Positions 6,661-57,000 of a stretch of 57,510 nt of DNA are shown piece after piece. Made by a program: the position numbers and the translations under genes. Positions within the stretch are counted from its first letter, which is position 1. Each line of letters opens with the position of its first letter. The DNA lies in IMG/VR virus record IMGVR_UViG_3300025433_000001, positions 1-57,510 of that record, one strand, 5' to 3'. The notes under the pieces were generated by a model. It was not told where the DNA came from and searched no databases. It was given only the letters and a program-made list of their open reading frames with translations. The stretch is from a virus.

Positions 6661-6756
6661 TTTCGGGGTTTCGGGGGTTCAGTCTGTTTTAAATGTTTCG
6701 GGGTTTCGGGGGTTCAGTCTGTTTTAAATGTTTCGGGGTTTTAGTCTGTTTTAAAA
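6661..6756 (-). repeat. Tandem leader repeat, 2 x 35 bp plus partial
   Basis: Two perfect 35-bp units (6661-6695 and 6696-6730) and a shortened third (6731-6756) lie between the polyvalent gene and the next gene upstream. On the transcribed strand the core is AACAGACTGAA followed by CCCCGAAA. The same core recurs at 6938-7008 and 9135-9195. The repeats lie in untranslated leaders just upstream of ribosome sites and supply the stop codon of the preceding gene. Confidence 0.85.
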
Positions 6757-6937: not shown

Positions 6938-7008
6938 TTTCGGGGTTTCAGTCTGTTTTAAATGTTTCGGGGTTTCAGTCTGTTTTAAATGTTTCGGGGT
7001 TTCAGTCT
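6938..7008 (-). repeat. Tandem leader repeat, 2 x 27 bp plus partial
   Basis: Units at 6938-6964 and 6965-6991 are identical, followed by a truncated third (6992-7008). Each carries the AACAGACTGAAACCCCGAAA core on the transcribed strand. The unit is the same as at 9135-9195, about 2.2 kb away, so these short sequences have spread among intergenic leaders. Confidence 0.85.
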
Positions 7009-9112: not shown

Positions 9113-9134
9113 GGTTTCTTTTCCTTCTATGGGG

Positions 9135-9195
9135 TTTCGGGGTTTCAGTCTGTTTTAAATGTTTCGGGGTTTCAGTCTGTTTTAAATGTTTCGGG
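9135..9195 (-). repeat. Tandem leader repeat, 2 x 27 bp plus partial
   Basis: Units 9135-9161 and 9162-9188 are identical to each other and to the units at 6938-6991, followed by a 7-bp partial copy. The stop codon of the 36-aa gene (TAA, 9182-9184) lies in the second unit. The repeat forms the leader of the 289-aa gene. Confidence 0.85.
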
Positions 9196-11019: not shown

Positions 11020-11244
11020 TTAGGCAATCCTCTTTGCGGCTCTCTTTTCGTTTGCTGTGGACGGCCTGCCTATTATCATTCCGCCATTTCTTTTTGCAAT
11101 ACGCTTTGCGGTACTGATAGCAATAGAGAGGGTTTTGTATTCGCCCGCTATGCTGTAGCTCTTATCAAATTTAGGGTCATCTTTAACTATCTGCACTTCG
11201 TAGCGGCTTGGCGCTAGTTTAACTATTTCTATTGACTCTCGCAT
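11020..11244 (-). CDS. Hypothetical basic protein, 74 aa; first gene of leftward operon
   Basis: Start at ATG 11242-11244 (MRESIEIVKLAPSRYEV) with an AAAGGAGTCAAGATT leader. An upstream ATG at 11287-11289 lies only 7 nt from the promoter -10 and lacks an SD, so it could be an alternative start. The N-terminal beta segment is followed by a basic helix-rich tail (SIAISTAKRIAKRNGG and EKRAAKRIA), compatible with nucleic acid binding. It is the gene nearest to the control region. Confidence 0.6.
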   Translation of the reverse strand: MRESIEIVKLAPSRYEVQIVKDDPKFDKSYSIAGEYKTLSIAISTAKRIAKRNGGMIIGRPSTANEKRAAKRIA

Positions 11245-11295
11245 AATCTTGACTCCTTTTGGTTGGTTTCTGTTTTGGGCTGTTTTCATAATGTC

Positions 11296-11323
11296 AATTT
11301 AGCACGCCCCATCTATATGTCAA
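11296..11323 (-). promoter_or_regulatory. Probable early promoter, leftward
   Basis: The minus strand reads TTGACA (11323-11318), 16 nt, then TAAATT (11301-11296). The -35 is perfect and the -10 is 4/6. It lies at the left edge of the control region, immediately upstream of the long run of tiny leftward genes. This is where an early promoter read by host RNA polymerase would be expected. Confidence 0.6.
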
Positions 11324-11390
11324 CCCTCTTTTTCAATTTTCTTTTGTTTTTTAAAAATAGAGCGCTATAGACGGATAGTGCTGATTCCTA

Positions 11391-11555
11391 TGGTATATAT
11401 AAAAAGCTAAAATGAAACACTTACAAAGATAAAAGGGAATATCGGCTTGTAAATTTAAAAAGTGCCGGGTATCCGGAATTGTGGCGATCGAGCGCGAAAA
11501 ACTATTTAACTCAAATATGTTTTATATATACCACTATGGGTTATATGGTATATAT
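11391..11555. promoter_or_regulatory. Three TGGTATATAT operator-like sites
   Basis: The 10-mer TGGTATATAT occurs at 11391-11400 (+), 11524-11533 (-) and 11546-11555 (+). The last two form an inverted repeat with a 12-bp gap, the geometry of a dimeric repressor site. The stretch is AT-rich and lies between the leftward promoter and the GC-rich array. It may be an operator or part of a DNA-unwinding element. Confidence 0.45.
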
Positions 11556-11654
11556 TAAAAGTTTTCAAATATATATTAGTTACCTTTTAAGATTGTGTAA
11601 AATTAAAAATACGTGGTTATTTGGAATTGTGAAGGGGTCATTATATTGATCTTC

Positions 11655-11672
11655 AAAAAAGGGCCCTTTTTT
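11655..11672. repeat. 18-bp perfect palindrome
   Basis: AAAAAAGGGCCCTTTTTT is a perfect palindrome without a loop, in the AT-rich half of the control region. As RNA its T-run could end transcription rightwards, though a loopless stem is weak. As DNA it is a plausible dimer-binding site. A nearby GATCTTCAAA occurs both before it and at 11762-11771. Confidence 0.5.
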
Positions 11673-11819
11673 AAAAATACAAGCGTAAACCGTATTTTCC
11701 CCCCTATATCCCGAAAAGTAGTGTTTTTTAAATTTACAAGAGCAACCCGGCCTTTTTTCGTGATCTTCAAATCAGGCCTAGTTTTTAAAAATGTAAAAGG
11801 TACGATCACGGGGCCCGCG

Positions 11820-12034
11820 TATCCTGTATCCTATACCGGCCCGCTGTATCCTGTATCCTATACCGGCCCGCGTATACCGGCCCGCTGTATCCTGTATCCT
11901 ATACCGGCCCGCGTATACCGGCCCGCGTATACCGGCCCGCGTATCCTGTATCCTATACCGGCCCGCTGTATCCTGTATCCTATACCGGCCCGCTGTATCC
12001 TGTATCCTATACCGGCCCGCGTATACCGGCCCGC
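11820..12034. repeat. Iteron-like array: 10 units ending TATACCGGCCCGC
   Basis: Ten copies of TATACCGGCCCGC are arranged head to tail. Six are long units, in which TATCCTGTATCC precedes the core, and four are the short core alone. In order they are long, long, short, long, short, short, long, long, long, short, joined by G or TG. A partial GGGCCCGC precedes the array and a diverged AACGCGGGCACGCG follows. The array lies beside about 500 bp of AT-rich DNA at the divergence point of the two transcription domains. Iterons plus AT-rich DNA is the classic layout of a replication origin; an operator array, a centromere-like site or a packaging site are alternatives. It is not a CRISPR array because there are no unique spacers. 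Confidence 0.85.
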
Positions 12035-12125
12035 GCTTATAGGAACGCGGGCACGCGTAACAGATAAAGAGTAACGTGTCAATATTATGTTTTCAAATCT
12101 GTTTTAATCGGGCGGGCGGGGCGGG

Positions 12126-12165
12126 CGTGTAAGAGATAGCGGCTACGTGTAAGAGATAGCGGCTA
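12126..12165. repeat. 20-bp perfect tandem repeat, 2 copies
   Basis: CGTGTAAGAGATAGCGGCTA occurs twice in a row (12126-12145 and 12146-12165), followed by CGTG. Weaker relatives of the first part are at about 12054 (CGCGTAACAGAT) and 12422 (CGTGTAACAG), giving four dispersed sites between the array and the first rightward gene. A regulator-binding role is possible. Confidence 0.7.
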
Positions 12166-12225
12166 CGTGGAGCATCCGGGCGCGGGTGCACTTCCCCCCC
12201 GCAAACCTCGAAGGTCGATTTTTAT

Positions 12226-12278
12226 TCGGGCTCAAAATTTCACGGGGGCAATTTCTCGGGCTCAAAATTTCACGGGGG
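12226..12278. repeat. 23-bp direct repeats at 30-bp spacing
   Basis: The 23-bp sequence starting TCGGGCTCAAAATTTCACGG occurs at 12226-12248 and 12256-12278, separated by 7 bp. The 30-bp period is close to three helical turns, so two protein molecules would bind the same face. It lies about 190 bp upstream of the first packaging gene, where a late-gene activator or repressor could act. Confidence 0.7.
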
Positions 12279-12468
12279 GATTTTTTAAACGAACCACTCG
12301 AAAACAGTCTACTTTAAATATGCCCCCTTATCTGGAAATAGAACGACCCCCTTCACAGTCGAAAAATATCGGGGACGCTACGCGTAGTGGGTAACTTTTT
12401 CCTTTACTAAAAGGGAGGCGACGTGTAACAGTGGCACCGGAAAAATAAACGGGAGACCCCTTGAACCT

Positions 12469-13746
12469 ATGACGACCGACCTATTAAAACTAGAGCCGAG
12501 TGCGGTGACGTTCGCCACGGCGGAAGAGAGTATTCTACTCGACCCTGAAGACCTGTATTCCCGAGCCGTGGCGCAAGCGCGGTACGCCCACGGGCTGACA
12601 ATCGAAGAAGCGGCGTCCGGTAACTTCCCGTCGCATCTCTCCGGCGCGAGGGCGGACGAGTCCCTCCCGTCAACTGTACGGCGCGAGCGAGCGACAGGGA
12701 TATTTCCCCCCGCGACCCCCGGCGAGATCCAACACCAAGCACTGTTGAACAAAGCCAGCAGGCACACCAAGGCACAAAAACTCGAAAAGCTCCTCGCCGC
12801 AGGAACGCTTACCCTCTCCGACACAAAGGGTTACAGAATACGGGTGGCGTACCGACTACTGCGGCAGATGGCGCGGGTGAGGGGGATACTAACCGGCTAC
12901 GAGATGCTACAGAACGTGCTGGGACTCAACGTCGGGAACACGGGCGTGAACCAGTGGGCACTCCCCCAGAAACTAGCGCAGTCGGGATTTCTCACAGGCA
13001 TGCGAGGTGCGCGGAACATTTTACTGAAGACAGAGACAGGGCGCGACCGATACACGTTTAACACGAACGACGGGTACCGTGGTTTTAAAGGAGTCACCAC
13101 CCTCCCGCCTCCAATCCCCGACCATCTTTATCCTGTGCAAACACCCGAGGGGATCTGGGGGTGGAGGCTGTCGCGTGCCGTCCCCGACGAGTACTCCGTC
13201 GCCAAGGACATGCCCCTGATACTGTACTGTGAAGCGATGACAGTGTTATCGGAACAGGTGGGGATACATCACGGTGCGCCGCAGGAGCCGTGGAGCGGGG
13301 AGTACGGATTAGCGGGGCTACTGAACCCTACCATTGCGCGAGTGGCGTGGCCGACGCGGGATGAACTCGTCATGTACGAAGAGGAGCTCGTGCTCCTGAT
13401 TTACGATAAGCTCATGCAGATGTCCGTGCGCTCGACCGAGCAGTACATGCAGGACTATTTCGGATACACACGGTTCGAGGCTCTCGACATCGTGAAGACC
13501 GCGAAGAGCATCGGCCCACTACTTTACAACGAATCGGCAGAAGTCGAGAAGGCTATCCTCATCAAACAGATCGACGCCATCGCCGAGAAGTGCGACCTTG
13601 CCGACGACCCCCGCGCGGAACTCGCTACCCTGAAACTCAAGGCGCAGTTGTTCGGGCTTACCGCCAACGAAGAAAACGAGGGTTTAGCGGCGTTAAGAGA
13701 CGCGGCCATTTCCAGTGCGAAGTACGAAGCGGAGGAGGACGAGTAG
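12469..13746 (+). CDS. Probable terminase small subunit-like DNA-binding protein, 425 aa
   Basis: First gene of the rightward (late) domain. The N-terminal 220 residues contain helical and winged-helix-like stretches (KLEKLLAAGTLTLSDTKGYRIRVAYRLL). The C-terminal 120 residues hold TEQYMQDYFGYTRFEALDIVKTA and AELATLKLKAQLFGL. The latter resembles the end of phage TerS-like and DNA-recognition proteins (a YSRxEA helix and a DxxAxLKxxxxLxGL helix). The length is large for TerS, and TerL is 3.4 kb downstream, so the assignment rests on position and C-terminal pattern. The leader is GGGAGACCCCTTGAACCT; the spacing is long. If correct it recognises the packaging site, possibly in the adjacent repeats. 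Confidence 0.5.
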   Translation: MTTDLLKLEPSAVTFATAEESILLDPEDLYSRAVAQARYAHGLTIEEAASGNFPSHLSGARADESLPSTVRRERATGIFPPATPGEIQHQALLNKASRHTKAQKLEKLLAAGTLTLSDTKGYRIRVAYRLLRQMARVRGILTGYEMLQNVLGLNVGNTGVNQWALPQKLAQSGFLTGMRGARNILLKTETGRDRYTFNTNDGYRGFKGVTTLPPPIPDHLYPVQTPEGIWGWRLSRAVPDEYSVAKDMPLILYCEAMTVLSEQVGIHHGAPQEPWSGEYGLAGLLNPTIARVAWPTRDELVMYEEELVLLIYDKLMQMSVRSTEQYMQDYFGYTRFEALDIVKTAKSIGPLLYNESAEVEKAILIKQIDAIAEKCDLADDPRAELATLKLKAQLFGLTANEENEGLAALRDAAISSAKYEAEEDE

Positions 13747-17200: not shown

Positions 17201-19906
17201 ATGTTCGGGATAGAAAACAAGCGACAGTCAGAAGGCGAAATGTTCGGCCTTCGGCCCTCTAAGTCTAAGCACTTCCTACACGACTTCTACAAAGAAATTA
17301 CTGAGGATATCTATGCTTGGTGCTTCTATCTGGATTTTAAACCGACGTGGCAACAGAAACAGCTCCTCGACGCTGTTCAAGAAGGGTACTCGAACGTTGC
17401 CGTGCGCTCCGGGCAGGGGCCGGGGAAATGCCTTCACGGAGATACCGAAATACTAACGTCCGAGGGAGTTAAAAAAATCAGAGACCTTATAGGGCGAGAA
17501 GACCTTCTTGTTTGGAGCATGGATGAGGCAACAGAAAAAACACACACAGCAAGTGCTAGGTGTTTCCCATCAGGATACAAGAAATGCACAACAATTAGAA
17601 CAGATTCAGGGCAGTCTACACGGCTCAGCACCGACCACCCTGTATATACTAGTTCGGGATGGCAAGAAGCGTCTGAGATAACTAACGGATGCCTTGTAGC
17701 CATGCCTCGTAACCTTCAATGGGTAGGAACTGAAGAAGTACCCAGCGAGGAAGTAAGGTGGGTAGGCTACATCCTTGGCGACGGAGGAACAACAGCCAAG
17801 CACGGAGTTCGTTTCACGCAAGAACCTTCCGATAGTTTGGATGATTTCCTACACTGCTGTAATTCTTTAGAGATGACATACCTCAACAGTTCGTCGCCCT
17901 CCAAAGCTCGGGACATAAGGGTGCACCACAAAGCGTCAAACGATGTGTTGTCTCGGTGGTCAAAAAGATCGTTAGCCAAACACAAAAGATTGCCGGATAG
18001 ATTTTGGAGTATCCGGCAGGACAGGGCGGCTGAGATACTGGCTACTTTGTGGCTGTGCGACGGGTACTTTGAGAAGGATGGAGCAGGCATCTGCCTAGCC
18101 AGTGAAGGGCTGATAGACGATGTGCAAACAGCACTACTTTTTTGGGGTATCCACAGCAGGAAAAGGTATAAAAAAGTTAAATTGGGAACGAAAACATTTG
18201 ACTCTTGGCGTCTAAGTATCTCAGGCAGGGAATCTCTGGTGCTCTTTTACGTGGAGATACTTAAAGGTTTCCACTCGTTTGATAAAATAAAAAAAGGACA
18301 CGTAAACTATCTGACGAACATCTGGAGTAAGCCAGAAAACACAAACACCGACGTTGTTCCCTATGACGACAAAGCGATGACCGAGATAGCGGAAGAATTA
18401 GGTATCCCCAAGACACGTCTGCGGGAAAAAGGGTGGAGAGGGCGCAACTACTCTCTATTGAGCAGGAAAAAATTCAAAGAACTCGTATCGGCTACAGGAT
18501 ACGATGGCAAACACGCTAAGTGGGCATCGAACGATATTTACTGGGTGCGGGTTGTCAGTAACACACAAGACAGGACAAACACGCCCGTCTACGATTTAGA
18601 GGTGCCAGAGTATGGAAATTTCGTGGCTAGAAATCTGGTTGTCCATAATACCGCCGCCGACGCCATAGTCGTGCCGTGGTGGAATCTCAAGTATCCGAAG
18701 AGCCTCGCGGTCGTCACAGCCCCGACAATGCGGCAGTGTAAAAACGTATGGCTCTCAGAGGCTCAGGGACGCATACAATCAGGCGACCCGCGTATCAGTT
18801 CCTTTTTCAACTTCACCGGCACAGGGTACGGCATTATGGGAAGTCGTAAAGACATCTGGGGGTGCTACCTTGCCACCGCTAACCGGCCAGAAGCGTTTCA
18901 GGGAATCCATAACCCCTACCTGCTCATGTTGTGCGAAGAAAGCTCCGGTATCGCACGAGGAATCATGGACACGATCAAGGGAACGATGTCCAACGCCGAA
19001 GGTACCTTCTTATGGCTCCAGATCGGAAACCCGAACACACGAACTTGCTCCTTCTTCGACTGTTTCCATTCCCAACTGGACAACCCTTGGCACTGCCTAC
19101 ACTGGAATGGGGAAGAGACACCGGAAACCCCTTGGTTTTCCAAGCGTCGAAATGAAGAAATCGCCGAGGAATTCGGCATGGATTCCGATGTTTACCGCGT
19201 CCGCGTGCTCGGGGAATTTCCGCACACCGACCCGTCAGTGCTTATCAACGAAAACGACCTCCTCGCGTGCACCAAACCAGAGGCAAAAGCGGCGGCACTG
19301 GCGGTAAATGTCAAGATGCGGCCGGTTCGGAAACAAATCGGCATCGACTTGGCTCGATACGGCGGAGACAAAAACTCAATCTCTACATTCTCAGGAAATA
19401 TCATGCTGAAGCTAGAAGCCTACAGCCGCACCGACCCGAACGCCACCATAGACAGGGCTGTCGTACTGCAAGAACATCTGGGATGGGGTAACAGCGAATG
19501 TACGTTTGTTGTGGATACTTCCGGCATGGGAGAGATGGCCGCAGGGATGCTCGGCAGTCAAAGACGCATGGGAAGGAAGATGCACGAGTTCTATTCCCAA
19601 AACACGGCGCACGAGTCGCAAAAATACGACAATAAAATCACGGAAGCGTGGTGCTTGTTTGCTAAAGAGGTTCGTGCCCACCGTATGTTCCTACAGTACA
19701 ATAAAAGTCTCTTTCAACAGCTTACAAACCGACTGTATTCCGTGACCAAACACGGCAAAATTAAGATCGAAACCAAGGACGAGTATAAAAAACGCAACGC
19801 TGATTCGTCCGATGGGGAGCTCGGGATGTCTCCAGACGAGGCTGACAGCGTGGTTTTAGGCCACTACCCACACGCAGTCGCCAGTACACGAGTCCTAACC
19901 GCGTAG
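17201..19906 (+). CDS. terL: Terminase large subunit interrupted by an intein
   Basis: The precursor is 901 aa. Exteins are residues 1-76 and 484-901 (494 aa after splicing), normal for TerL. The ATPase P-loop SGQGPGK-T is split by the intein. Walker B is LLMLCEE, followed by the coupling region QIGNPNTR. The C-terminal RNase H-like nuclease begins IGIDLARYGGDKNSI and includes FVVDTSGMGEMAAGML and a late acidic site (MSPDEADS). The enzyme cuts concatemers and pumps DNA into proheads through the portal. The leader is GGAGACCAC. No TerS or portal is adjacent; the next gene is a truncated paralog of its ATPase half. Confidence 0.95.
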   Translation: MFGIENKRQSEGEMFGLRPSKSKHFLHDFYKEITEDIYAWCFYLDFKPTWQQKQLLDAVQEGYSNVAVRSGQGPGKCLHGDTEILTSEGVKKIRDLIGREDLLVWSMDEATEKTHTASARCFPSGYKKCTTIRTDSGQSTRLSTDHPVYTSSGWQEASEITNGCLVAMPRNLQWVGTEEVPSEEVRWVGYILGDGGTTAKHGVRFTQEPSDSLDDFLHCCNSLEMTYLNSSSPSKARDIRVHHKASNDVLSRWSKRSLAKHKRLPDRFWSIRQDRAAEILATLWLCDGYFEKDGAGICLASEGLIDDVQTALLFWGIHSRKRYKKVKLGTKTFDSWRLSISGRESLVLFYVEILKGFHSFDKIKKGHVNYLTNIWSKPENTNTDVVPYDDKAMTEIAEELGIPKTRLREKGWRGRNYSLLSRKKFKELVSATGYDGKHAKWASNDIYWVRVVSNTQDRTNTPVYDLEVPEYGNFVARNLVVHNTAADAIVVPWWNLKYPKSLAVVTAPTMRQCKNVWLSEAQGRIQSGDPRISSFFNFTGTGYGIMGSRKDIWGCYLATANRPEAFQGIHNPYLLMLCEESSGIARGIMDTIKGTMSNAEGTFLWLQIGNPNTRTCSFFDCFHSQLDNPWHCLHWNGEETPETPWFSKRRNEEIAEEFGMDSDVYRVRVLGEFPHTDPSVLINENDLLACTKPEAKAAALAVNVKMRPVRKQIGIDLARYGGDKNSISTFSGNIMLKLEAYSRTDPNATIDRAVVLQEHLGWGNSECTFVVDTSGMGEMAAGMLGSQRRMGRKMHEFYSQNTAHESQKYDNKITEAWCLFAKEVRAHRMFLQYNKSLFQQLTNRLYSVTKHGKIKIETKDEYKKRNADSSDGELGMSPDEADSVVLGHYPHAVASTRVLTA
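17429..18649 (+). mobile_element. LAGLIDADG intein (407 aa) within the TerL Walker A motif
   Basis: The intein spans residues 77-483. It starts with Cys (CLHGDTEILTSEG, block A), has the block B TxxH site (STDHPVYTSSGW), and ends VYDLEVPEYGNFVARN plus LVVHN (blocks F and G) before Thr as the +1 nucleophile. Splicing restores GPGK-T. The core contains a dodecapeptide homing endonuclease with two motifs, VGYILGDGG and LATLWLCDG, both with the acidic residue. All blocks look intact, so splicing and homing may be active. Its base composition is more AT-rich than flanking TerL DNA. P-loops are favoured intein sites because a precise excision is the only tolerated loss. Confidence 0.95.
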
Positions 19907-19942: not shown

Positions 19943-20506
19943 ATGGGTAAAGAACCTAAAAGAGAAATATATGATTACCTGACGAAAATAACCCCAAATA
20001 TAGGTGCTTTTTGCACGGCACTTAATTTCTCTCCTAGAGAAAGACAGAAAGAGTTTTTGGACTCTTTTACACGTTGCCCCGAAAGCACGGACATTGAATG
20101 GGATAGGGGGGAAGGGAGAACCACAGCAACTGTGGTGGCTTCTTTGTGGTGGTTGCTTAAAAACACACAAGGAAGGTGTCTAGTAGTGTGTCCAACCCTA
20201 AACCAATCAATACATATCTGGTTAACTGAGTGTAAAAAGATTTTAGAGAAAGCAGACCCTCGATTAAGTTCCTTTTATACCCTGAGAAAAACAGGAGCGG
20301 GGCTGTTTGGGGAACAGAAGCATGTGTGGGGGTTGTCCACTATCTCGGCTCGCAGTGTTGCAGGTTTCCAAGGCATTTGCGCAGAAAAACTACTCATTGT
20401 ATGCGACGAATACCAAGGCATCAAGCAGGATGTTATGGCCACCATTCAAGATTACCAGAAGTACGGCGGTGTTGTTTTAAGAACGATACCGACTCAAAAC
20501 CGTTGA
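19943..20506 (+). CDS. ATPase-only TerL paralog with altered Walker A, 187 aa
   Basis: The product aligns along its length with the TerL extein ATPase domain. GAFCTALNFSPRERQKEFLDS matches YAWCFYLDFKPTWQQKQLLDA. DPRLSSFYTLRKTGAGLFG matches DPRISSFFNFTGTGYGIMG. LLIVCDEYQGIKQDVMATI matches LLMLCEESSGIARGIMDTI. The P-loop reads RGEGRTT, with Arg for the catalytic Lys; Walker B is a canonical CDE. It ends at the coupling motif (TIPTQNR against IGNPNTR), so the nuclease domain is missing. It has its own AAAGGAGACTATCAA leader. It is AT-richer than TerL. It could be a decaying duplicate, a regulator that joins the packaging ring, or a decoy. The altered P-loop would not match the intein homing site. 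Confidence 0.85.
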   Translation: MGKEPKREIYDYLTKITPNIGAFCTALNFSPRERQKEFLDSFTRCPESTDIEWDRGEGRTTATVVASLWWLLKNTQGRCLVVCPTLNQSIHIWLTECKKILEKADPRLSSFYTLRKTGAGLFGEQKHVWGLSTISARSVAGFQGICAEKLLIVCDEYQGIKQDVMATIQDYQKYGGVVLRTIPTQNR

Positions 20507-26678: not shown

Positions 26679-27254
26679 ATGAATAACCTGTGTAAAAAGA
26701 GTAAAGTAACGAAGACGATCCACGGTGAAGATGTTAATTTCTACGCCATTCCTATGGGAACAGTTTTCAAATTCAAACACCTGTCCAAGAAAGCGTCCGG
26801 TTTTCTGGCGACCCTCTTCGCGGACGAGTCTAAAGATGTTACCGTAGAGTCGTACACCGGCCCGTCCGATCAGAAAGACGAAAAGGGCGACGCGTACACG
26901 CAGACGCAAAGCACAACCAAGGAAATTTCAGCGAGCCTCGCATCCCTGCGAGCCAAGCAAAAAGCGGACAGCGTCGAAGGGTTCGTTGACTCTCTTTTTG
27001 CGGACGACGCACAGGAACTCCTCGTGGAGATTATCATTAAATCTGCCTCCGACACCTTCACGGATGCGGACGCCGCAGACCTCCTAGAAAACATGGATTC
27101 GGGCTCCTTTGCACAGTACCTTTTCGGCGCGTTTGAGGCATCTAAGGAGGGCTTCGCCGGGCTGGGAAAGTCCTTATCCCTCCTCGGCAACTTCGGAAAG
27201 ATAAAAGAGGCCGTAGCGGTAGGAACCGACGCACTGAAAAAAGTGACCGAGTAG
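26679..27254 (+). CDS. Tail assembly chaperone (gpG-like), 191 aa
   Basis: Placed between tube and tape measure as gpG always is. Helical and acidic (SLASLRAKQKADSVEGFVDSLF, SASDTFTDADAADLLENM). Near its end the codons CTG AAA AAA GTG provide an A-run on which ribosomes can slip back, joining the next frame. Leader AAAAGGAGCCGAAGACC. It binds the tape measure and recruits tube subunits; not part of the mature virion. Confidence 0.85.
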   Translation: MNNLCKKSKVTKTIHGEDVNFYAIPMGTVFKFKHLSKKASGFLATLFADESKDVTVESYTGPSDQKDEKGDAYTQTQSTTKEISASLASLRAKQKADSVEGFVDSLFADDAQELLVEIIIKSASDTFTDADAADLLENMDSGSFAQYLFGAFEASKEGFAGLGKSLSLLGNFGKIKEAVAVGTDALKKVTE

Positions 27255-39638: not shown

Positions 39639-39744
39639 GTGCTTTAGATTTTGAATATGCCGTTTACGCGGATTGCTTGCTGGGAGAGACGGTCTCGCTC
39701 CTTGCTTTTAATCCGTATTGCGGCGACTTATAAGGGACTATATT

Positions 39745-41118
39745 ATGAGCGACAAAGACAAAAACTTCAATGTATCGAATGTATGTTCCCGACCGCCCGC
39801 TCCGTTGTTTAAGGGTGCCGGAAGTGAGATGTACGCTCTGACTACGATCTCCGGGAGTAAAGGCACCACGGAGCCTGCAGGGTCGAACGCGGAAGTTCTC
39901 CAAGGTCAGAAGGTTCTTCCGCCGCCGCTCAACATTAAAGCCGCCCTCGCGCTCAAGGACAAATCACCCCACCACGCTACCTGTATCGTCACCAAGAAGA
40001 ACTGTATAGCAGGCCTTGGTTTCCTGTCTGACAAGGACATCAACAACGACGGCGCGATAGATGCTACCGAGGAGCACGCCGCTGAGGTCGCTTCCCTGCT
40101 CACGGGAGCACCCTACGTTAAATCGGACGCGGACACCGCGCTCGACCCTCGTACTCATTTCGGATTTTCTCCCGAGTTACTGACGGCAGTAGAAGACTTC
40201 CTCGACACCGGCACCGGTTATTTGGAAGTGGTTCGCACAGGGGGGGACATCACATGGATCGGCCACCTTCCTGCGGCATCCGTGCGCTTTGTCCAGAACG
40301 GGCGTCACCTCTATTTCCAAGTCCAAGAAACCGGCGGCGCATTGAAGTACTTCAGTCGTTACGGAGCGGAACACAAAAAGTGGCTCCTTGAAGAAGGCCC
40401 GTACAAAGGATCGACCTCCCACACCGAGGACACCGTATCCGAGGTTATCGTTTTCCAAGAGCCCAGTAATCGCGTTAAATATTACGGCTACCCTTCTTGG
40501 CTCGCGGCGGCAATCGACATCGACCTGCTGAAAAAGGCCAAGCAGTACAAGGCCGATTTTTATCACAATCGCGGCGTGATGGATTTCATTCTTTCTATCA
40601 CCGGTGCGAAGGTAGACGAGGACGATTGGAAAACCATCAACGACAATGTCACCGGCACGTCCGGCGAGGGCAACAACTACAAGAACATGGCACTGAATAT
40701 CGCTAGTCCCGACGCCAAAGTGGAAGCCATCAAGCTCGCCGCCGACATGAAAACTGAAGACCAGTTTACCAAGGATAACGAAACGTTCGCTCTGAACATT
40801 GTTACAGCTCACGGAGTACCGCCTCTGCTCGCAGGTATCCAGATCTCCGGTAAGCTCGGCGCGTCGAACGAGTTCTCAAGCTCGTTGGTAGGCTTCCAGC
40901 TCCTGCGCATCGGCCCAGCTCAGCAGATCGTGCAGAAGGTCTTGGCCTCGACCCTCGGCAACAACGACGAAAACGGGGACTTGAAACTCGAAGAGAACGA
41001 CTTCCGCCTGCGCTCGATCACATCCCAGATCAATCTCGACGGCCTCGACACTCTCGGTAAAATGCACGAAGAAGCCGTGGAAGTAGACCGTGACCTTAAC
41101 GACGGCGTTAAGGACTAA
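39745..41118 (+). CDS. Portal protein (PBSX/HK97-like family), 457 aa
   Basis: Start at ATG 39745 with AAGGGACTATATT; a longer frame starts 27 nt earlier without an SD. Portal hallmarks: NIKAALALKDKSPHHATCIVTKK, LEVVRTGGDITWIGHLPAASVRF, YYGYPSWLAAAIDIDLLKKAKQYKA (the YGxPxW signature), and FALNIVTAHGVPPLLAGI plus the trans-stem part. It forms the dodecameric DNA gate. The position after the tail tip rather than between TerL and protease is atypical. Confidence 0.92.
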   Translation: MSDKDKNFNVSNVCSRPPAPLFKGAGSEMYALTTISGSKGTTEPAGSNAEVLQGQKVLPPPLNIKAALALKDKSPHHATCIVTKKNCIAGLGFLSDKDINNDGAIDATEEHAAEVASLLTGAPYVKSDADTALDPRTHFGFSPELLTAVEDFLDTGTGYLEVVRTGGDITWIGHLPAASVRFVQNGRHLYFQVQETGGALKYFSRYGAEHKKWLLEEGPYKGSTSHTEDTVSEVIVFQEPSNRVKYYGYPSWLAAAIDIDLLKKAKQYKADFYHNRGVMDFILSITGAKVDEDDWKTINDNVTGTSGEGNNYKNMALNIASPDAKVEAIKLAADMKTEDQFTKDNETFALNIVTAHGVPPLLAGIQISGKLGASNEFSSSLVGFQLLRIGPAQQIVQKVLASTLGNNDENGDLKLEENDFRLRSITSQINLDGLDTLGKMHEEAVEVDRDLNDGVKD

Positions 41119-46817: not shown

Positions 46818-46904
46818 TTTTATCTTCCTTTTCTTCTGTCAAAGCGGCAGGACAGCTTGCTCGGTGCCGCCCCTCGCATCCCCTGTTTCTACCCCCAAAA
46901 GGTT

Positions 46905-47287
46905 TGGAGCTGGCGGGAATCGAACCCGCGTCCTAATCAGCTTCCAATAAAGGTTTACATGTTTTCAGGGTGGCAACTGGTGCCACCTCCACCAACTAGT
47001 TTTATCCGAAACCAGCAAAACGGGTTTCCGTCGGTTTTAGCCCCTCCACGGTCGGACTCCCTTACGGGCACCAGTCTTAGCAGTTCAGGTCGTCGATCCT
47101 CTGGCATCTTCTTCGACCCGTTCATCACACCTCAGTTAAGCGGCGATTGCGAGAGCCGGAGCTCCGCCGATGAATCCTAGAACTTTCGTTTTAGCATTTA
47201 TGTTTTGGACGGCTTTTTACGTGGCCCACCGACCAACCACGACATGAACTTTATTTTCTGTCTAACCAGTCGAAACCAGTCAGCCCC
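46905..47287 (-). ncRNA. ssrA: Phage-encoded tmRNA
   Basis: The leftward transcript starts GGGGCTGACTGGTTTCGAC and ends GGACGCGGGTTCGATTCCCG then CCAGCTCCA. The acceptor stem pairs GGGGCUG with CAGCUCC. The T-arm GCGGG-TTCGATT-CCCGC and the D-loop-like GGTTTCGAC are the universal tmRNA ends. CCA is not encoded. Length is about 383 nt. The predicted tag frame (47195-47136) reads AKTKVLGFIGGAPALAIAA and stops, with ATAAAT before the resume GCT. The -AA end fits ClpXP-type degradation. A pseudoknot-like hairpin GGTGGCACCAGTTGCCACC is near the 3' side. One-piece form. It would rescue stalled ribosomes with host SmpB. Confidence 0.93.
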
Positions 47288-48292: not shown

Positions 48293-50407
48293 TCAATTCC
48301 CGAAACGATCCTCTAACAAATCACGGGCTTCAGAGGTAGTAACTCCGGGCTTGGCTCCCCATTCTTGGAGAATTTCAAAGGGGACAACTTCCGGCATGGG
48401 GGTGTGTGTGGCGTATATAATCTTCTGTGCATTACCCTGTGATTGGTGCACGTAAGCCGCATCGTTTAACGTCGCGCCGAACAGAACCCTATCGAACTCC
48501 GTTGTGAAACAGGTAGTGACGTTTACTTCGTCGTACTCCTGCTCCATGCGGTGCTGTCGGCCTAGGGACTGCTCTGCTGTTTTCGCGGATCTCGGCCACT
48601 GGAGGTAGAACATGTTGTGGTCGAACTGGAGATTTTTGCCGGTGCCGTGCGCGTTCACCGTTAAAATGATAAGCCTTCCTCGGCACTTATCGGGCTGGTT
48701 TAGGAGTACGTTCGATACCTTTCCGGCTTTGCACAATAATGGGTCGAGCCCTTCCTCTACTGCTCTCTCGTAAACCCAATCCCCCATCTCGTCGTTATCG
48801 TACCAGATCAACCCGCCTTCGCCCTTGGGAAGGTTCTTCGCCCACTCTACGGCCTTCTCGACCTTGAAGCCGCAGACCCTTATCGCCCGCTTGTTCCGGT
48901 CGATACGTCGCTCGAAATCGGAATCCTTCCACTCGCGCCATGAACAGAACAGATCGTAGCCGACGTTCTTATAGCCGTGGATGCTCATATCTTTACCGAT
49001 GAGCATGGGCGTGTCCAACCCTGCCCGAGCGCGGTCGGTTATCCATGCCCGTAGATTCCTCTGATACCCGAGGTGGCAGGAGTGGTACTGCTGAGACCGT
49101 TTCAGGATGTCCTTAGCGTCAGCGACCGACGCGTATTTCTCACGGCGCATCATCCAATCAATATCCGGCCAGTACTGTTCCGTGTAGAATCCCGCGCCCT
49201 CTATCCAATACTTCCAGCGGAAAAGGTGCATGGCTTCCTCGATCTCGTCGCCGTTGGGCGTGAGCCATTCCTGTTCGAGTTGCTGGACGAGCTCCCGTAA
49301 CTTATCCCATCCTTCGTACTTCTCGGGGTGGGGTATCGGCTCGTTTTTGATATAGAGGGAATAAGGCAGATCGTCCCCGCTCGAACAGACCACACCGGGG
49401 GTCGTGGTAAGTCGTTTCTGGAACACGTTGCGGAAACCTTTAACCCCTCCGTCGAACGTTTCCTCGGGGAAATTCTCACGAGCCCAGTTGAGAATGTATT
49501 TAAGCGGCCCTGCTTTCGGTAGTGTGTCGTTCCTGAAATCTGAAAGGCTCGTCGCTGAACTGTCGATGATCTTCGACCACTCCTCTGTAAGAGAGCGCGA
49601 GTTCGGTAGGAAATTGTTATCGCCGAGGGCGGCACGCGCCAGCTCGAAGTAATCCGTAAGCATCTTCTGTGTCATGGTTCCCGAGAGCGCGACGACCTTC
49701 GGGCGTTTCTCGTTCAGGTATTTATTGAACCGGCGAGCGCGGGCGGATTTCTTGGAGACAGAGTGCGCCTCGTCAAGAATAATCAGGTCAGGGGAAATCG
49801 CATCCAGAATCTCGTGCGCGTCCGGCTGTGACAGTAAGGAATACGTGTAAATGTAGAGACCCCTGCGCCCGGAGTTGGCGAGTAATTTCCTCTTGGATTT
49901 TGAAAGCCCCGCGATGCGATGAATCGGGGTATTGAAAATCGTGCGCGGACGCCAGTGTTTAATGTCGGTATCGCAGAGCTGTGTAGCGAGCGACGGCGGC
50001 ACGATAATCATAATCTTATCCATCCCGCCATGGTACGCGTCGTTGGCGATCAGCAAAGAGGTAAGCGTCTTCCCGCCTCCGACCGCGAGCGGTAGGAACG
50101 CCCCGCCGGTATCGTTGAACGCGATGAGCGATTCTGCCTGCTTAGGAAGGAGCCTACCGCCCTTGATAAAGGCCTCGGCTTGAAAGTAGTGCTTTGACAC
50201 GGCTTCGAGGTCGTCCTCGGTCAGCTCGTACCGTACCGGGACGTTTACGATGCGCATAATCTCCGCGTTCATCGTGTCCACGGCGCGGGATCTCATCTTA
50301 TTGAAATTCAACGGCGGGCGTTTCGACGGCGCGGCGGCAACGGACACAGCCCCTACGCTCTGCGCGAGGGACTTCATGCGGGCTATTTTATCGGAAGTTA
50401 TCGACAT
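48293..50407 (-). CDS. SF2 DEAH-box helicase (SNF2-like), 704 aa
   Basis: Walker A LAVGGGKTLTSLLIAND, motif Ia VPPSLATQLC, Walker B ILDEAHSVSKKS, motif III VALSGTMTQKM, and C-terminal motifs V/VI (VNAHGTGKNLQFDH, SAKTAEQSLGRQHRM). This order is that of SNF2/RapA-type SF2 translocases in phage replication modules. It probably unwinds or remodels DNA during replication or recombination. Its start overlaps the end of the glycosyltransferase gene. Confidence 0.92.
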   Translation of the reverse strand: MSITSDKIARMKSLAQSVGAVSVAAAPSKRPPLNFNKMRSRAVDTMNAEIMRIVNVPVRYELTEDDLEAVSKHYFQAEAFIKGGRLLPKQAESLIAFNDTGGAFLPLAVGGGKTLTSLLIANDAYHGGMDKIMIIVPPSLATQLCDTDIKHWRPRTIFNTPIHRIAGLSKSKRKLLANSGRRGLYIYTYSLLSQPDAHEILDAISPDLIILDEAHSVSKKSARARRFNKYLNEKRPKVVALSGTMTQKMLTDYFELARAALGDNNFLPNSRSLTEEWSKIIDSSATSLSDFRNDTLPKAGPLKYILNWARENFPEETFDGGVKGFRNVFQKRLTTTPGVVCSSGDDLPYSLYIKNEPIPHPEKYEGWDKLRELVQQLEQEWLTPNGDEIEEAMHLFRWKYWIEGAGFYTEQYWPDIDWMMRREKYASVADAKDILKRSQQYHSCHLGYQRNLRAWITDRARAGLDTPMLIGKDMSIHGYKNVGYDLFCSWREWKDSDFERRIDRNKRAIRVCGFKVEKAVEWAKNLPKGEGGLIWYDNDEMGDWVYERAVEEGLDPLLCKAGKVSNVLLNQPDKCRGRLIILTVNAHGTGKNLQFDHNMFYLQWPRSAKTAEQSLGRQHRMEQEYDEVNVTTCFTTEFDRVLFGATLNDAAYVHQSQGNAQKIIYATHTPMPEVVPFEILQEWGAKPGVTTSEARDLLEDRFGN

Positions 50408-51285
50408 TTCTTACTACCCTTTTCAATTACTAATTTCATACCGTATTCATTTACCCCTGAAGGGACTACAACGCCCTCTTTTCTAGTTAGTTTAGTCGCC
50501 TTGAAAGGCGTGTAATCTACGTGATGGTGCCAGCGGTTAAACTTGTGAACCATCTTCGCCACGTCGGGGTGCATCTCCTCCAGCATCTTACTTTTAGGGA
50601 CTGTCCCCTCTCCGCTGTAGAACTCCTCCGTGTTCCCTCCCTTCATTCGTTGAGTGGTGACTTTGCCCTGCAAGAAAGCATTGAATTGGACAGTACACCA
50701 CCCATCTTTGAGGGCTCGTAAGCAAATGTCCGTGTCCTCATTATACCTCCCGCGCCACCTGTAAGGGATGTCGTTACGGATCAGCAAACAACTGTAAATT
50801 CTAGTGTTAGTAATCAGAGGAGGTACGGGGTCTACAGCCTTGCAAAACGCTTCATAGTTAGGCCCAGAGATTGCCACGTTAGAATACCGTTCTACAAAAT
50901 CTTCCATCGCACGGAAGATAGCCCCTGTTCGGCTCTCGTACTTCACGTTACGGTTTAACCTGTAAAAGGCTTCTAGGTTATCATCCATTACCCAGTGGTG
51001 TGAGTGTCCCTGTTCGGTGGAGTGATCCCAAACGAAATTCCTCGCCGCCCCCGGACCAACCTTGTTGTCGGGCTCCCTTTCCCAGAACGTGTCGTAATCG
51101 TCTTTGTATTTTTCTGGGAGGACAAGCACCCGCTCAGGCCCTACGGCTTCTGCGTAATCTGCGTACTCGTCGGATTCTACTACCAGCTTATGAGGGACGT
51201 TCATTATATCGAGAGCCCTGCTTGTGACCCTGCTATCCCAGCGGCCTTTGGAAACAATATAAATAGGGTGTTTTGGGTTATTCAT
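50398..51285 (-). CDS. TET-associated-type glycosyltransferase (TAGT/GREB-like), 295 aa
   Basis: Opens NPKHPIYIVSKGRWDSRVTSRALD, followed by HKLVVESDEYADYAEAVG, LPEKYKDDY, GAARNFVWDH and HHWVMDDNLEAFY, the DxD-type metal site. A later RGRYNEDTDICLRALKDGW holds the acceptor or catalytic acidic region. As I recall, this is the pattern of the TET/JBP-associated GT-A glycosyltransferases of phages that glucosylate hydroxylated bases. I start at ATG 51283-51285 after GGAAGGTATGGATAC. No TET/JBP dioxygenase or hydroxymethyl-nucleotide synthase was recognised elsewhere, so its substrate is unknown. Confidence 0.8.
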   Translation of the reverse strand: MNNPKHPIYIVSKGRWDSRVTSRALDIMNVPHKLVVESDEYADYAEAVGPERVLVLPEKYKDDYDTFWEREPDNKVGPGAARNFVWDHSTEQGHSHHWVMDDNLEAFYRLNRNVKYESRTGAIFRAMEDFVERYSNVAISGPNYEAFCKAVDPVPPLITNTRIYSCLLIRNDIPYRWRGRYNEDTDICLRALKDGWCTVQFNAFLQGKVTTQRMKGGNTEEFYSGEGTVPKSKMLEEMHPDVAKMVHKFNRWHHHVDYTPFKATKLTRKEGVVVPSGVNEYGMKLVIEKGSKKCR

Positions 51286-51658
51286 GTATCCATACCTTCC
51301 GCTCAACTCTGTGGTGTGCTTTGTACGGGTGCCACACGCTTTTTGTCCTGTCTGTGATCTTCTGGCCCAGCAACTCCGTCATAATACCCGAATCAAACTC
51401 AGGGGGTACAGACAGGATGATCCATAGGAAAGGTATGCTCTTAGGTTGGTGGAATTCTGGCATCCCTTCCCACTCCGCCACGAGGCTAGGCCCTGTTTGC
51501 TTTGTTACTTTTCTGGAGGTCTCGGTGAACTCGCCAAGATCAAACACCGCCACGGTGCCCTTAACGCATTTAGGGATACAGATGCCCGTCGAAGTGTAGA
51601 AGTTTTCCACGTCTTCAGGGCACGAGAACCTTATATTCAGGTTTCTAACTGGTTCCAT
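51278..51658 (-). CDS. Conserved phage protein, 126 aa
   Basis: Start at ATG 51656-51658 (MEPVRNLNIRFSCPEDVENF) after GGAGAGTAAA. The end GQKITDRTKSVWHPYKAH matches a motif (ITxKTKSIWYP) I recall from a family often encoded beside ParB-like or DNA-modification genes. It overlaps the glycosyltransferase gene, so a linked role in base modification is possible but inferred. Confidence 0.6.
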   Translation of the reverse strand: MEPVRNLNIRFSCPEDVENFYTSTGICIPKCVKGTVAVFDLGEFTETSRKVTKQTGPSLVAEWEGMPEFHQPKSIPFLWIILSVPPEFDSGIMTELLGQKITDRTKSVWHPYKAHHRVERKVWIHE

Positions 51659-54383: not shown

Positions 54384-54412
54384 ACTATTTACTTTATCTT
54401 TTGCTGTGTCAA
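54384..54412 (-). promoter_or_regulatory. Probable sigma70 promoter, leftward
   Basis: Minus strand TTGACA (54412-54407), 17-nt spacer, AATAGT (54389-54384; 4/6 match), in an AT-rich gap that begins at the end of the primase-helicase gene. It is well placed for the membrane protein and nuclease genes. Confidence 0.55.
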
Positions 54413-57000
54413 TTATTTTCAGCTTTTAATTGTACCAACCTTATCGCTCTCAAATTCGGGGTGTCTTTCCCGAGTGTCTGAGCGAACGTCAGCAGGGTTT
54501 GACAGTCCAGCTCGTGCCATTCCAGATGATTGACGACGATAGGTTCTTGACCGAGAACGATGTTACGCATGACCTGCACGATGGTTCCGAACTCCATGGG
54601 ATTGTCCAGTATCTCAAGCTCTTCGCGTATAGCCTGAACGGTGACGTATAGGGCTCCTGTTCCCTCGTCGATCATGTAGTGGTGTCGGGCACTCTTCGAC
54701 TCGATGATTCCCAGCGCGGCGAGGATGACGATGGACGTGGTATTTCGGGTAACGATCTGCTGTTGCATGAACTGACTGTCCCCTGCGCAGTTACCGGCGA
54801 CTAGGTATCTTCCTCGGAAGCCGCCCTCTTCAACCTCTCGCTGTGCGTACAGCCACAGGAAGTGTTTCGCTACGATGTAATTGGAAGGCTCTACGATCCC
54901 CGCTATCCAGCGAGCACCTTTCTTTCCGGTGAATGCGTTGCCTCCTAACTCTTCGAGGTGTGCCGCCGCTTCCGGCCCGAGGTCAAAATGTAAGAGACGC
55001 TCACCGACCGCACGCTTGTCGTCCGGGCTCATCTCTTTACCGGAAAGGAGAGTGCGTACCATGTCGTGGTTGTTGGCGGTCATTATGACTCGCATGGGGT
55101 TGATGACCTGTACGTTGGGTTTGAACTTTTCTTTAATCGTGGTTTTGTCGCCCGCCGTCAGCATCTTGAACAACTCGAACGGTGCCGAGGAGACTTTCGC
55201 TTTCGGCCATGACTCGTTCACGCAAAGGAAGGGTGTCTTTCCGAGGGAGCCGTTAAAATCTCCTATGATGTCGGAACCGGTCGCTGTCAAGGGCATTTCC
55301 AGACATTCTGACAGGCCTTCAGTGAGGAGCTTTTTACCGATGCCCGGCGGCGCGGCAATGGACAGGGCACAAATCGGCCCCTCTTCAAAGGCGAGAGCGT
55401 TAGCGATCCAGTTACACCCCTCGTCGTAGTGGTTGCCAAAGAACAACGTGAGCCAAATATCCACGTCCTCGCTGTACTCAGGTAGGATCGCTGAGCTACG
55501 TCTATACATCGGTAGTTTAAGTACCGGGTTTGCTTTGTCCATGTCGTCTATCATACCGTCACACTCCAGTTGTGGTACCATCTCTATCGCTCTGATAGGA
55601 GTTGAATACGCGTTTTGTATGCACACAGCCGCTACGTCCTGTGGCTTGCCGTTCTGTCCATACTCTGTTGTCTCGATTATGTTCTTGAGGAACGTGGTAC
55701 GGATGCGGGGGATGAGATCCGAACGACCGAGGGGGAACGGTGAATAGCACCCGTCGCGCCCCATGGCAAAAAAGAAATTGGAATTAGAACAACTGGCTAA
55801 AAGGTGACGGAGGACAAAGGGCACCCGCAGATCGTCTGCGTCCAGATCGGAATGGGTGCACCAGTCCTTCATGCCCCGAGCCATCTCCTCGATGTCCGTC
55901 AAAGCCTCGGTTTCTTTTTCGGCTTTCTCGACCCGCTCGGCGTTAATCTTTTCGACCTCTACAGGCCAGATGGCCATGATGGCGTTCCATGTGTGGGAGA
56001 ACCAATCCTGATCCTGTTCCAAGGCTGTAATGGGGCCGAAGAAAAGAGCGTAAACGTGCTCGGGTGACGTGTACGGGACTTTGCGCAAAAGGATGGGGAT
56101 GCACTGCCCGAGGTAATTCATAATCGTGTCGTTACGATTGCCGCCCTCTGCTAGGAGAATATCCTCGCTGAACAGGCAGTGATAGGCCTGCGTGTTTTTC
56201 AGTGCTGTCTTGGCGTCTTTGTAAAACTGACTCTGGACTTGTCGCCCGTTTTTGGATGTCTGAAGGAACGCTTCTATTTCCTCGACTTCCAGACGACTTG
56301 AGCCGGACGCGTCGTAGGTTCTAAGGGTGGGGAGGATGCGCGTCGGCTTCTTCTCCACGAGGGACATATCCAAGACCGCTCCCTCTCGGGTGTCCTCCAT
56401 AAAGTAGGGACTTGCCGATGTCCTCTTCCCGTCGCGGATGACTCGCGGGCACCGGAAGCGTCGTGTCCAATCCTTGCAAGATGGGTCGGCTTCAACTCCC
56501 GCTTTTTCAAATTCTTTAATCAGCCCGACGAGGTACTGTTCCGCGTCCATAACAGGCACGGGTTCCTCGGGGATGTAGATGACCCTTGCGCCGCTCCCCG
56601 TCGTATAGAAGGCAGACCACTGCCCGAGGATGGGGTTATCGTCAAGGGAATAGAACGCTGAGATATTTGTATCGAAAAGTTCGTCGTTCCATTTCTCATG
56701 GTCGGCGTTGTCTAAATCCAGAACGAAACACGATAAGGTGAGTTCCGCTTCTTTCTCAACGGAGACCCTCGCCTCTTTGCGGATGGTTGGCCACGCCTCT
56801 TGTCCGGCGACGTTGTAACAGGTGAGGTGCGCGTCGTCGTGGTGCTCGGTGGCGAGCATCTCCCTGATACTTACCACGTCCTGCGCGACAGGGCTGAACG
56901 GCATTCCCTTCTTATCGAAATGCGGGCCGTGCAGAGATTTGATACCGAGGAAATATTTATTCGGAAGAACTCCTATACGGGTGGTATCTAAATTGCTCAT
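54409..57000 (-). CDS. Primase-helicase (AEP primase plus SF3/D5-like helicase), 863 aa
   Basis: N-terminal archaeo-eukaryotic primase features: SCFVLDLDNADHEKW, AFYTTGSGARVIYIP and CKDWTRRFRCPRVIRDGK. The C-terminal half is a D5-type ATPase: Walker A SIAAPPGIGKKLLTEGL, Walker B-like PFLCVNESW, motif C VIMTANNHDMV, and arginine finger region AVGERLLHFDLG. These proteins open and prime the origin. Its start overlaps the HTH gene's stop by 4 nt. If the array at 11820 is the origin, this is the likely initiator, though it is encoded about 12 kb away across the junction. Confidence 0.9.
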   Translation of the reverse strand: MSNLDTTRIGVLPNKYFLGIKSLHGPHFDKKGMPFSPVAQDVVSIREMLATEHHDDAHLTCYNVAGQEAWPTIRKEARVSVEKEAELTLSCFVLDLDNADHEKWNDELFDTNISAFYSLDDNPILGQWSAFYTTGSGARVIYIPEEPVPVMDAEQYLVGLIKEFEKAGVEADPSCKDWTRRFRCPRVIRDGKRTSASPYFMEDTREGAVLDMSLVEKKPTRILPTLRTYDASGSSRLEVEEIEAFLQTSKNGRQVQSQFYKDAKTALKNTQAYHCLFSEDILLAEGGNRNDTIMNYLGQCIPILLRKVPYTSPEHVYALFFGPITALEQDQDWFSHTWNAIMAIWPVEVEKINAERVEKAEKETEALTDIEEMARGMKDWCTHSDLDADDLRVPFVLRHLLASCSNSNFFFAMGRDGCYSPFPLGRSDLIPRIRTTFLKNIIETTEYGQNGKPQDVAAVCIQNAYSTPIRAIEMVPQLECDGMIDDMDKANPVLKLPMYRRSSAILPEYSEDVDIWLTLFFGNHYDEGCNWIANALAFEEGPICALSIAAPPGIGKKLLTEGLSECLEMPLTATGSDIIGDFNGSLGKTPFLCVNESWPKAKVSSAPFELFKMLTAGDKTTIKEKFKPNVQVINPMRVIMTANNHDMVRTLLSGKEMSPDDKRAVGERLLHFDLGPEAAAHLEELGGNAFTGKKGARWIAGIVEPSNYIVAKHFLWLYAQREVEEGGFRGRYLVAGNCAGDSQFMQQQIVTRNTTSIVILAALGIIESKSARHHYMIDEGTGALYVTVQAIREELEILDNPMEFGTIVQVMRNIVLGQEPIVVNHLEWHELDCQTLLTFAQTLGKDTPNLRAIRLVQLKAENN

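Follow-up and report, generated by a model that had tools for sequence, protein, structure and literature searches.

The divergence region and its repeat array

The window analyzed here, the whole stretch of 57,510 bases, carries a 127-base exact repeat at its ends and thus represents a complete circular assembly of approximately 57.4 kb. The genome is that of an uncultured, siphovirus-like tailed bacterial virus which has no close relative in the phage collection. A leftward early block extends from 11289 downward, across the contig ends, to approximately 41.7 kb and contains genes for methylases, a PolA-type polymerase, a helicase, a nuclease, a glycosyltransferase and a primase-helicase. 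The rightward late block, from 12469 to approximately 41.7 kb, contains the terminase, protease, capsid and tail genes. The two blocks diverge from a non-coding hub in which the order, from left to right, is an AT-rich segment, the array, copies of CGTGTAAGAGATAGCGGCTA, copies of TCGGGCTCAAAATTTCACGGGGG and the gene for a protein designated P0001. The features referred to below are as follows.

11290 to 12468, no strand: non-coding hub, delimited in the ORF map by the first early gene (11020 to 11289, minus strand) and the first late gene (12469 to 13746, plus strand)
11320 to 11810, no strand: AT-rich palindromic segment with the inverted repeats TGGTATATATAAAA, TTTTATATATACCA and TGGTATATATTAAA and the lowest GC content of the genome
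11812 to 12035, plus strand: array of ten TATACCGGCCCGC units, six of them preceded by GTATCCTGTATCC, with a degenerate half-unit, GGGGCCCGC, at the left edge
12126 to 12169, plus strand: tandem repeat, 2.2 copies of CGTGTAAGAGATAGCGGCTA
12226 to 12284, plus strand: repeat pair, two 29- to 30-bp copies of TCGGGCTCAAAATTTCACGGGGG, a G/C run plus an A/T tract
12469 to 13746, plus strand: P0001, 425 amino acids with a probable helix-turn-helix (HTH), a candidate (large) small terminase (TerS); homologues occur in most relatives, frequently beside an array
17201 to 19906, plus strand: large terminase (TerL), interrupted by a LAGLIDADG intein
54409 to 57000, minus strand: DUF5906 primase-helicase-like protein, separated from the array by approximately 12 kb of the circular genome
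56997 to 57305, minus strand: 102-amino-acid IclR-type HTH protein, an alternative candidate for binding the array

An earlier note, made from the sequence alone, had described a unit recurring ten times and extended six times, and an exact pattern search bore this out. The 13-mer TATACCGGCCCGC was present in 10 exact copies between 11832 and 12034 (starts at 11832, 11859, 11873, 11900, 11914, 11928, 11954, 11981, 12008 and 12022), and GTATCCTGTATCC was present in 6 exact copies between 11819 and 12007, each immediately 5' of a TATACCGGCCCGC 13-mer. Inclusion of the degenerate leftmost half-unit brings the full extent of the array to approximately 11812 to 12035. With A denoting GTATCCTGTATCC and B denoting TATACCGGCCCGC(G/T), the 13- and 14-bp blocks follow the order A-B, A-B, B, A-B, B, B, A-B, A-B, A-B, B. 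No further match to TATACCGGCCCGC with one mismatch or fewer was detected on either strand of the whole record, and the sole two-mismatch match beyond the array was at position 26853. In Markov-shuffled versions of the whole genome, the maximum count for any 13-mer was 2, compared to the 10 copies of TATACCGGCCCGC. Start-to-start distances were 27, 14, 27, 14, 14, 26, 27, 27 and 14 bp, all multiples of approximately 13.5 bp; the phase coherence of the starts was 0.98 at 13.5 bp and 0.19 at 10.5 bp, indicating that the units are not helically phased. The internal symmetries attributed to the unit did not all survive inspection: GGGCCC is not part of the unit and occurs once, at the left edge of the array, and GTATAC is present but is formed only at the short joints rather than throughout. 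Searches of public viral and species-genome collections, which may omit records very near this one, detected no match to the exact pair of TATACCGGCCCGC and GTATCCTGTATCC.

Coding repeats were ruled out, as the 13- and 14-bp units break the reading frame, and an assembly artifact was rejected on the grounds that the array is too complex. The copy number in the contig may nevertheless be off, because 224 bp of repeats exceeds the 127-bp end overlap. Folding of the separate DNA strands gave z scores of -3.4 for the minus strand and -0.6 for the plus strand; the minus-strand signal is read as a by-product of the repeated palindromes.

There were no credible genes within 11290 to 12468, the ORF at 11613 to 12074 merely crossing the repeat units. 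The placement of the array at the divergence of two transcription domains was confirmed by the ORF map and by an AT-skew minimum at 11352 and a purine-skew minimum at 12038, turns which are what gene orientation alone would give. A cumulative GC-skew minimum at the array, put forward in the same note as a check, was not found when the skew was computed: the detrended curve had its minimum at 2684 and its maximum at 39915, and the array lies at neither. An AT-rich flank with palindromes, also claimed, is indeed present on the left side, where the 200 bp from 11497 to 11696 have the lowest GC content of the whole genome (24.5%) and TTTTATATATACCA and TGGTATATATTAAA form palindromes. The segment from 11320 to 11810 is a candidate unwinding element and/or a candidate set of early-promoter operators. 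A-tract phasing, used as a test for bent DNA at the hub, was not significant, and neither a DnaA box near the array nor a sigma70-like promoter pointing rightward out of it was found.

Recurrence of arrays beside P0001 homologues

No relatives came to light when P0001, the helicase or the primase was used as a single-protein query. Searches for the closest relatives with the capsid, protease and terminase proteins yielded only one close relative, L015, reached via the protease (capsid 87% and terminase 72% identical), which is a fragment beginning inside the terminase operon and does not contain the array region. A terminase search of species genomes produced no match above 38% identity, and therefore no host was assigned. 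Terminase alignments did define a family of approximately 20 diverged phages whose TerL proteins are 34 to 58% identical, and HMM searches located P0001 homologues at 18 relative loci; with the exception of L059, the homologue lies upstream of TerL, and in L038 it is only a fragment.

Arrays were present directly 5' of the P0001 homologue in several of these loci. Loci L030 and L031 had 16/21-bp units (GTGAGTTTTTTCT and GGGGTAGATTTTCT) adjoining the homologue on its upstream side; L039 had 12/16-bp units (CATGCCCTACCC and CATGCCCTGCACTGGT); L041 had 6.8 copies of TCCTGCCCTGTA and 7.2 copies of AGTTGCAGGAT; L066 had 26-bp units; L032 had three copies of CCCCAATTTTCCCC; and L035 had three copies of approximately 50 bp. 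Unit lengths across relatives thus included 12/16, 16/21, 11/12 and 26 bp, and the unit sequences were unrelated. In G014 (TerL 54% identical), the early-gene end of the contig is formed by a mixed array of 9- and 12-bp units, CGCGGCACT and CGCGGCACTCCA; no P0001 gene was found on this contig, whose other end begins in late genes. Repeats of the general kind of TCGGGCTCAAAATTTCACGGGGG, as judged by eye, sit at the same proximal position in several relatives. In L066, ten perfect TGGCAC-N5-TTGC sites, mostly 26 to 28 bp apart, lie between 3405 and 3692, with none elsewhere in 21 kb. This motif, the sigma54 -24/-12 consensus, does not occur in the genome studied here, and the sites in L066 could possibly form a tandem promoter or a sigma54 decoy.

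Repeat coverage was compared in 400-bp windows across 15 loci, including this genome. The strongest repeat window lay immediately upstream of the P0001 homologue in 7 of the 15, compared to 1.1 expected (P = 3.5e-5). This value should be read with the knowledge that arrays were already evident at several loci when the test was devised and that the loci are not fully independent. Among the exceptions, the higher-scoring repeats of L055, L061 and L065 look coding and lie inside early genes, as judged from their sequence and overlapping ORFs; these dense, apparently coding (hexapeptide-like) repeats occupy 1600 to 2100 in L055, 2950 to 3200 in L065 and 250 to 850 in L061, within leftward early genes. 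Upstream of the P0001 homologue in L029, L034, L040, L064 and L065, there was either no clear array or only two-copy repeats; a 13-bp array in L040, approximately 6 kb upstream of its homologue, was left out of the count. The motif TATCCTG, seen in this genome, in L041 and inverted in L029, was rejected as a binding site common to the family, because it is absent near P0001 in most relatives.

The earlier note had suggested comparing related genomes for conservation of unit and spacing. Distant relatives had either a different array at this position or no array. The array position is thus conserved and the unit sequence turns over. Both the sequence and the spacing of the units change rapidly, which is what co-evolution of a binding protein with its site would produce. 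The AT-rich neighbor recurs as well: in 8 of 13 loci, including this genome, the most AT-rich 200 bp of the locus fell within 1.5 kb upstream of P0001, the relatives being L029, L032, L035, L061, L062, L065 and L066. Since intergenic DNA is generally AT-rich, the recurrence speaks for a conserved hub but does not tell whether that hub is regulatory, an origin or a packaging site.

The P0001 protein as a candidate small terminase

The P0001 gene is the head of the late operon, with the array approximately 430 bp upstream of it. Searches of P0001 against Pfam and PHROGs gave no family match, and no sequence profile identifies it as a small terminase; one homologue matches phrog_3802 (TerS, PHROGs) weakly, at an E value of 0.03. 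The first full-length structure model was poor (mean pLDDT of 62) and had no useful match among solved structures. A model of the conserved C-terminal part was helical (mean pLDDT of 81) with an HTH-like segment, and its best solved-structure match was the small terminase of phage G20c (6ejq; Z of 5.9 and rmsd of 2.6 over 53 residues, model positions 90 to 144). This match covers only a short stretch and is too weak to stand alone. Structure matches among viral models included DNA-binding proteins and annotated small terminases. Over the segment aligned to G20c TerS, the P0001 profile independently matched a transcriptional regulator (E value of 0.0055). The HTH-like segment is central to C-terminal, with approximately 300 residues ahead of it, a placement that differs from that in typical small terminases. 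We have fair confidence that P0001 is an HTH protein and moderate confidence that it is a small terminase, the latter mainly because of synteny, as a single small gene separates the P0001 homologue from TerL in L030 and L039.

TerL is encoded downstream of P0001 in the same operon, and the same order is found in most relatives. The terminases of L030 and L039 align with it over the same length, and that of L015 does not have the intein insert. Directly downstream of TerL, at 19943 to 20506, is a gene for a 187-amino-acid protein resembling the N-terminal part of TerL, which looks like a partial TerL duplicate.

Possible roles of the hub in packaging, replication and transcription

The array may be the protein-recognition part of the genome-packaging start region (pac), a reading that we favor tentatively and rate just short of an even chance. 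By this account, P0001 would be the small terminase and, by analogy, would oligomerize and bind several repeats cooperatively on replicated, concatemeric DNA. The array-bound protein would recruit TerL, which would cut nearby, and this cut would start headful packaging. A second probable role for P0001 is control of its own late promoter, which would lie in this region as well; the AT-rich palindromic half of the hub probably carries the early promoter and may carry the replication origin. The evidence for pac includes an exact, unique, two-type array directly upstream of a late operon which has P0001 first and encodes TerL, the recurrence of P0001 homologues beside different arrays in relatives, and the structure and profile matches of P0001. 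Against it are the relatives in which the array is absent or two-copy, the lack of a TerS profile match for P0001, the shortness of its structural match, the unusual placement of its HTH-like segment and the lack of A-tract phasing. Circular assemblies with end overlaps of 68 to 127 bp were obtained for this genome and four relatives; these fit circularly permuted headful DNA and are also compatible with other types of ends or other causes.

Known packaging sites offer partial parallels. The pac regions of Bacillus phage SPP1 and its relative SF6 contain several sets of direct repeats around the promoters and start of the small-terminase gene, with only moderate conservation of the repeats between the two phages (PMC4737164). 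The genome described here likewise has direct repeats, in its case upstream of a candidate small-terminase gene. It differs in having one long, exact, ten-unit array of two types, approximately 430 bp upstream and not overlapping the gene start, a candidate small terminase that is much longer and unrecognizable by sequence, and no detected sign of bent DNA. The pac site of phage P1 comprises many short repeated recognition elements for its small-terminase protein; these are hexamers that bear methylation sites and lie within the small-terminase gene. The array resembles it in its many short repeated elements, but here these are 13-mers in non-coding DNA.

The main and serious rival, which we nonetheless consider somewhat unlikely, is an iteron-type replication origin, in which an initiator (P0001 or the 102-amino-acid IclR-like HTH protein) would bind the repeats, melt the AT-rich segment and load the DUF5906 primase-helicase for bidirectional replication. 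The direct repeats adjoin the AT-richest 200 bp of the genome, a putative unwinding element; seven relatives likewise have the AT-rich extreme of their locus on the upstream side of the P0001 homologue, and the array lies at a switch of gene strand. However, the spacing in multiples of 13.5 bp is not helically phased (phasing being typical, not universal), the GC skew turns at 2.7 and 39.9 kb (a turn at the origin being common, not defining), a DnaA box is lacking nearby, and the primase gene is 10 to 12 kb away in this genome and in G004, G012 and G018, those in which the distance was measurable. The AT-richness, moreover, may merely mark a long, promoter-bearing intergenic region. The likeness to iteron origins that was noted at the outset therefore holds for repeats beside an AT-rich segment at a divergence; phasing, GC skew, DnaA box and primase distance speak against it. 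The same comparison applies to the origins of phage lambda and plasmids RK2 and F (PMC10797057), which share direct repeats adjoining an AT-rich segment, whereas the array here is unphased and has no adjacent recognizable initiator gene, DnaA box or GC-skew turn. The origin of the PLE satellite, in which semi-palindromic repeats around a poly-A tract are bound by RepA_N (PMC7145576), likewise has its repeats in non-coding DNA of a replicon related to phages, but neither that form of unit nor RepA_N was seen here. The recurring AT-rich neighbor fits an origin equally as well as pac, and the recurrence of a P0001-type HTH gene beside the array argues for packaging no less than for an origin.

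A less probable function, one we would regard as unlikely, is transcription control: the array would be a tandem set of sigma-factor or regulator sites that switch between the early and late blocks, whether as operators, as tandem late promoters or as a decoy. The array does lie between divergent operons, and the strongest hint is the equivalent array of L066 with its ten perfect sites, a feature confined to that lineage; the related L055 has a one-mismatch sigma54-like site just 5' of its P0001 homologue. Such sites are missing from this genome and nearly all other relatives, no sigma70-like promoter was found pointing rightward from the array, and ten copies is far above the number usual for promoters. 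A partition site, a recombination site or a functionless expansion of tandem repeats appears very unlikely. Tandem repeats expand readily and the units are unrelated among relatives, but arrays recur at the equivalent point of the gene order in diverged phages, and neutral growth would not favor this one site; no ParA, ParB or integrase was detected among the proteins scanned, which take in only part of the small ORFs. We give only a slim chance to a wider form of the packaging reading, in which the phages of this group would keep, where the TerS-TerL operon begins, an array conserved in position but private in sequence. Each lineage would have its own unit (often of two alternating types), and the array would co-evolve with a large packaging protein of the HTH type. 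Where the unit had become a host sigma-factor site, as it would have in some lineages, one array could both time late transcription and mark DNA for packaging.

Taken across the family, the array is probably a packaging or replication landmark with a fast-changing sequence and a stable position. How phage packaging proteins recognize their own genome, and how this recognition changes in evolution, is poorly understood. Arrays that hold their position beside a candidate binding protein but differ in the sequence, length and number of their units offer a natural series for tests of protein-site co-evolution, and the pattern of an array beside P0001 provides a route to packaging or replication hubs in uncultured phages for which there are no read data.

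Several features elsewhere in the genome were also observed. Tandem repeats of 27 or 35 bp, CATTTAAAACAGACTGAAACCCCGAAA on the minus strand, occur at 6661 to 6755, 6938 to 7008 and 9134 to 9195 in the leaders of leftward early genes, where they are followed by a repeated ribosome-binding-site leader; they are probably a shared early-gene regulatory element. The early block also contains a complete tmRNA gene (46904 to 47287, minus strand; Rfam RF00023, 130 bits) with the predicted tag AKTKVLGFIGGAPALAIAA, which is unusual for a phage and a possible clue to the host. A gene for a TET-associated glycosyltransferase (TAGT) at 50398 to 51306 on the minus strand (E value of 1.3e-48) suggests hypermodified DNA. 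A portal-like gene, at 39718 to 41118, follows the tail genes and is approximately 20 kb from the terminase rather than adjacent to it.
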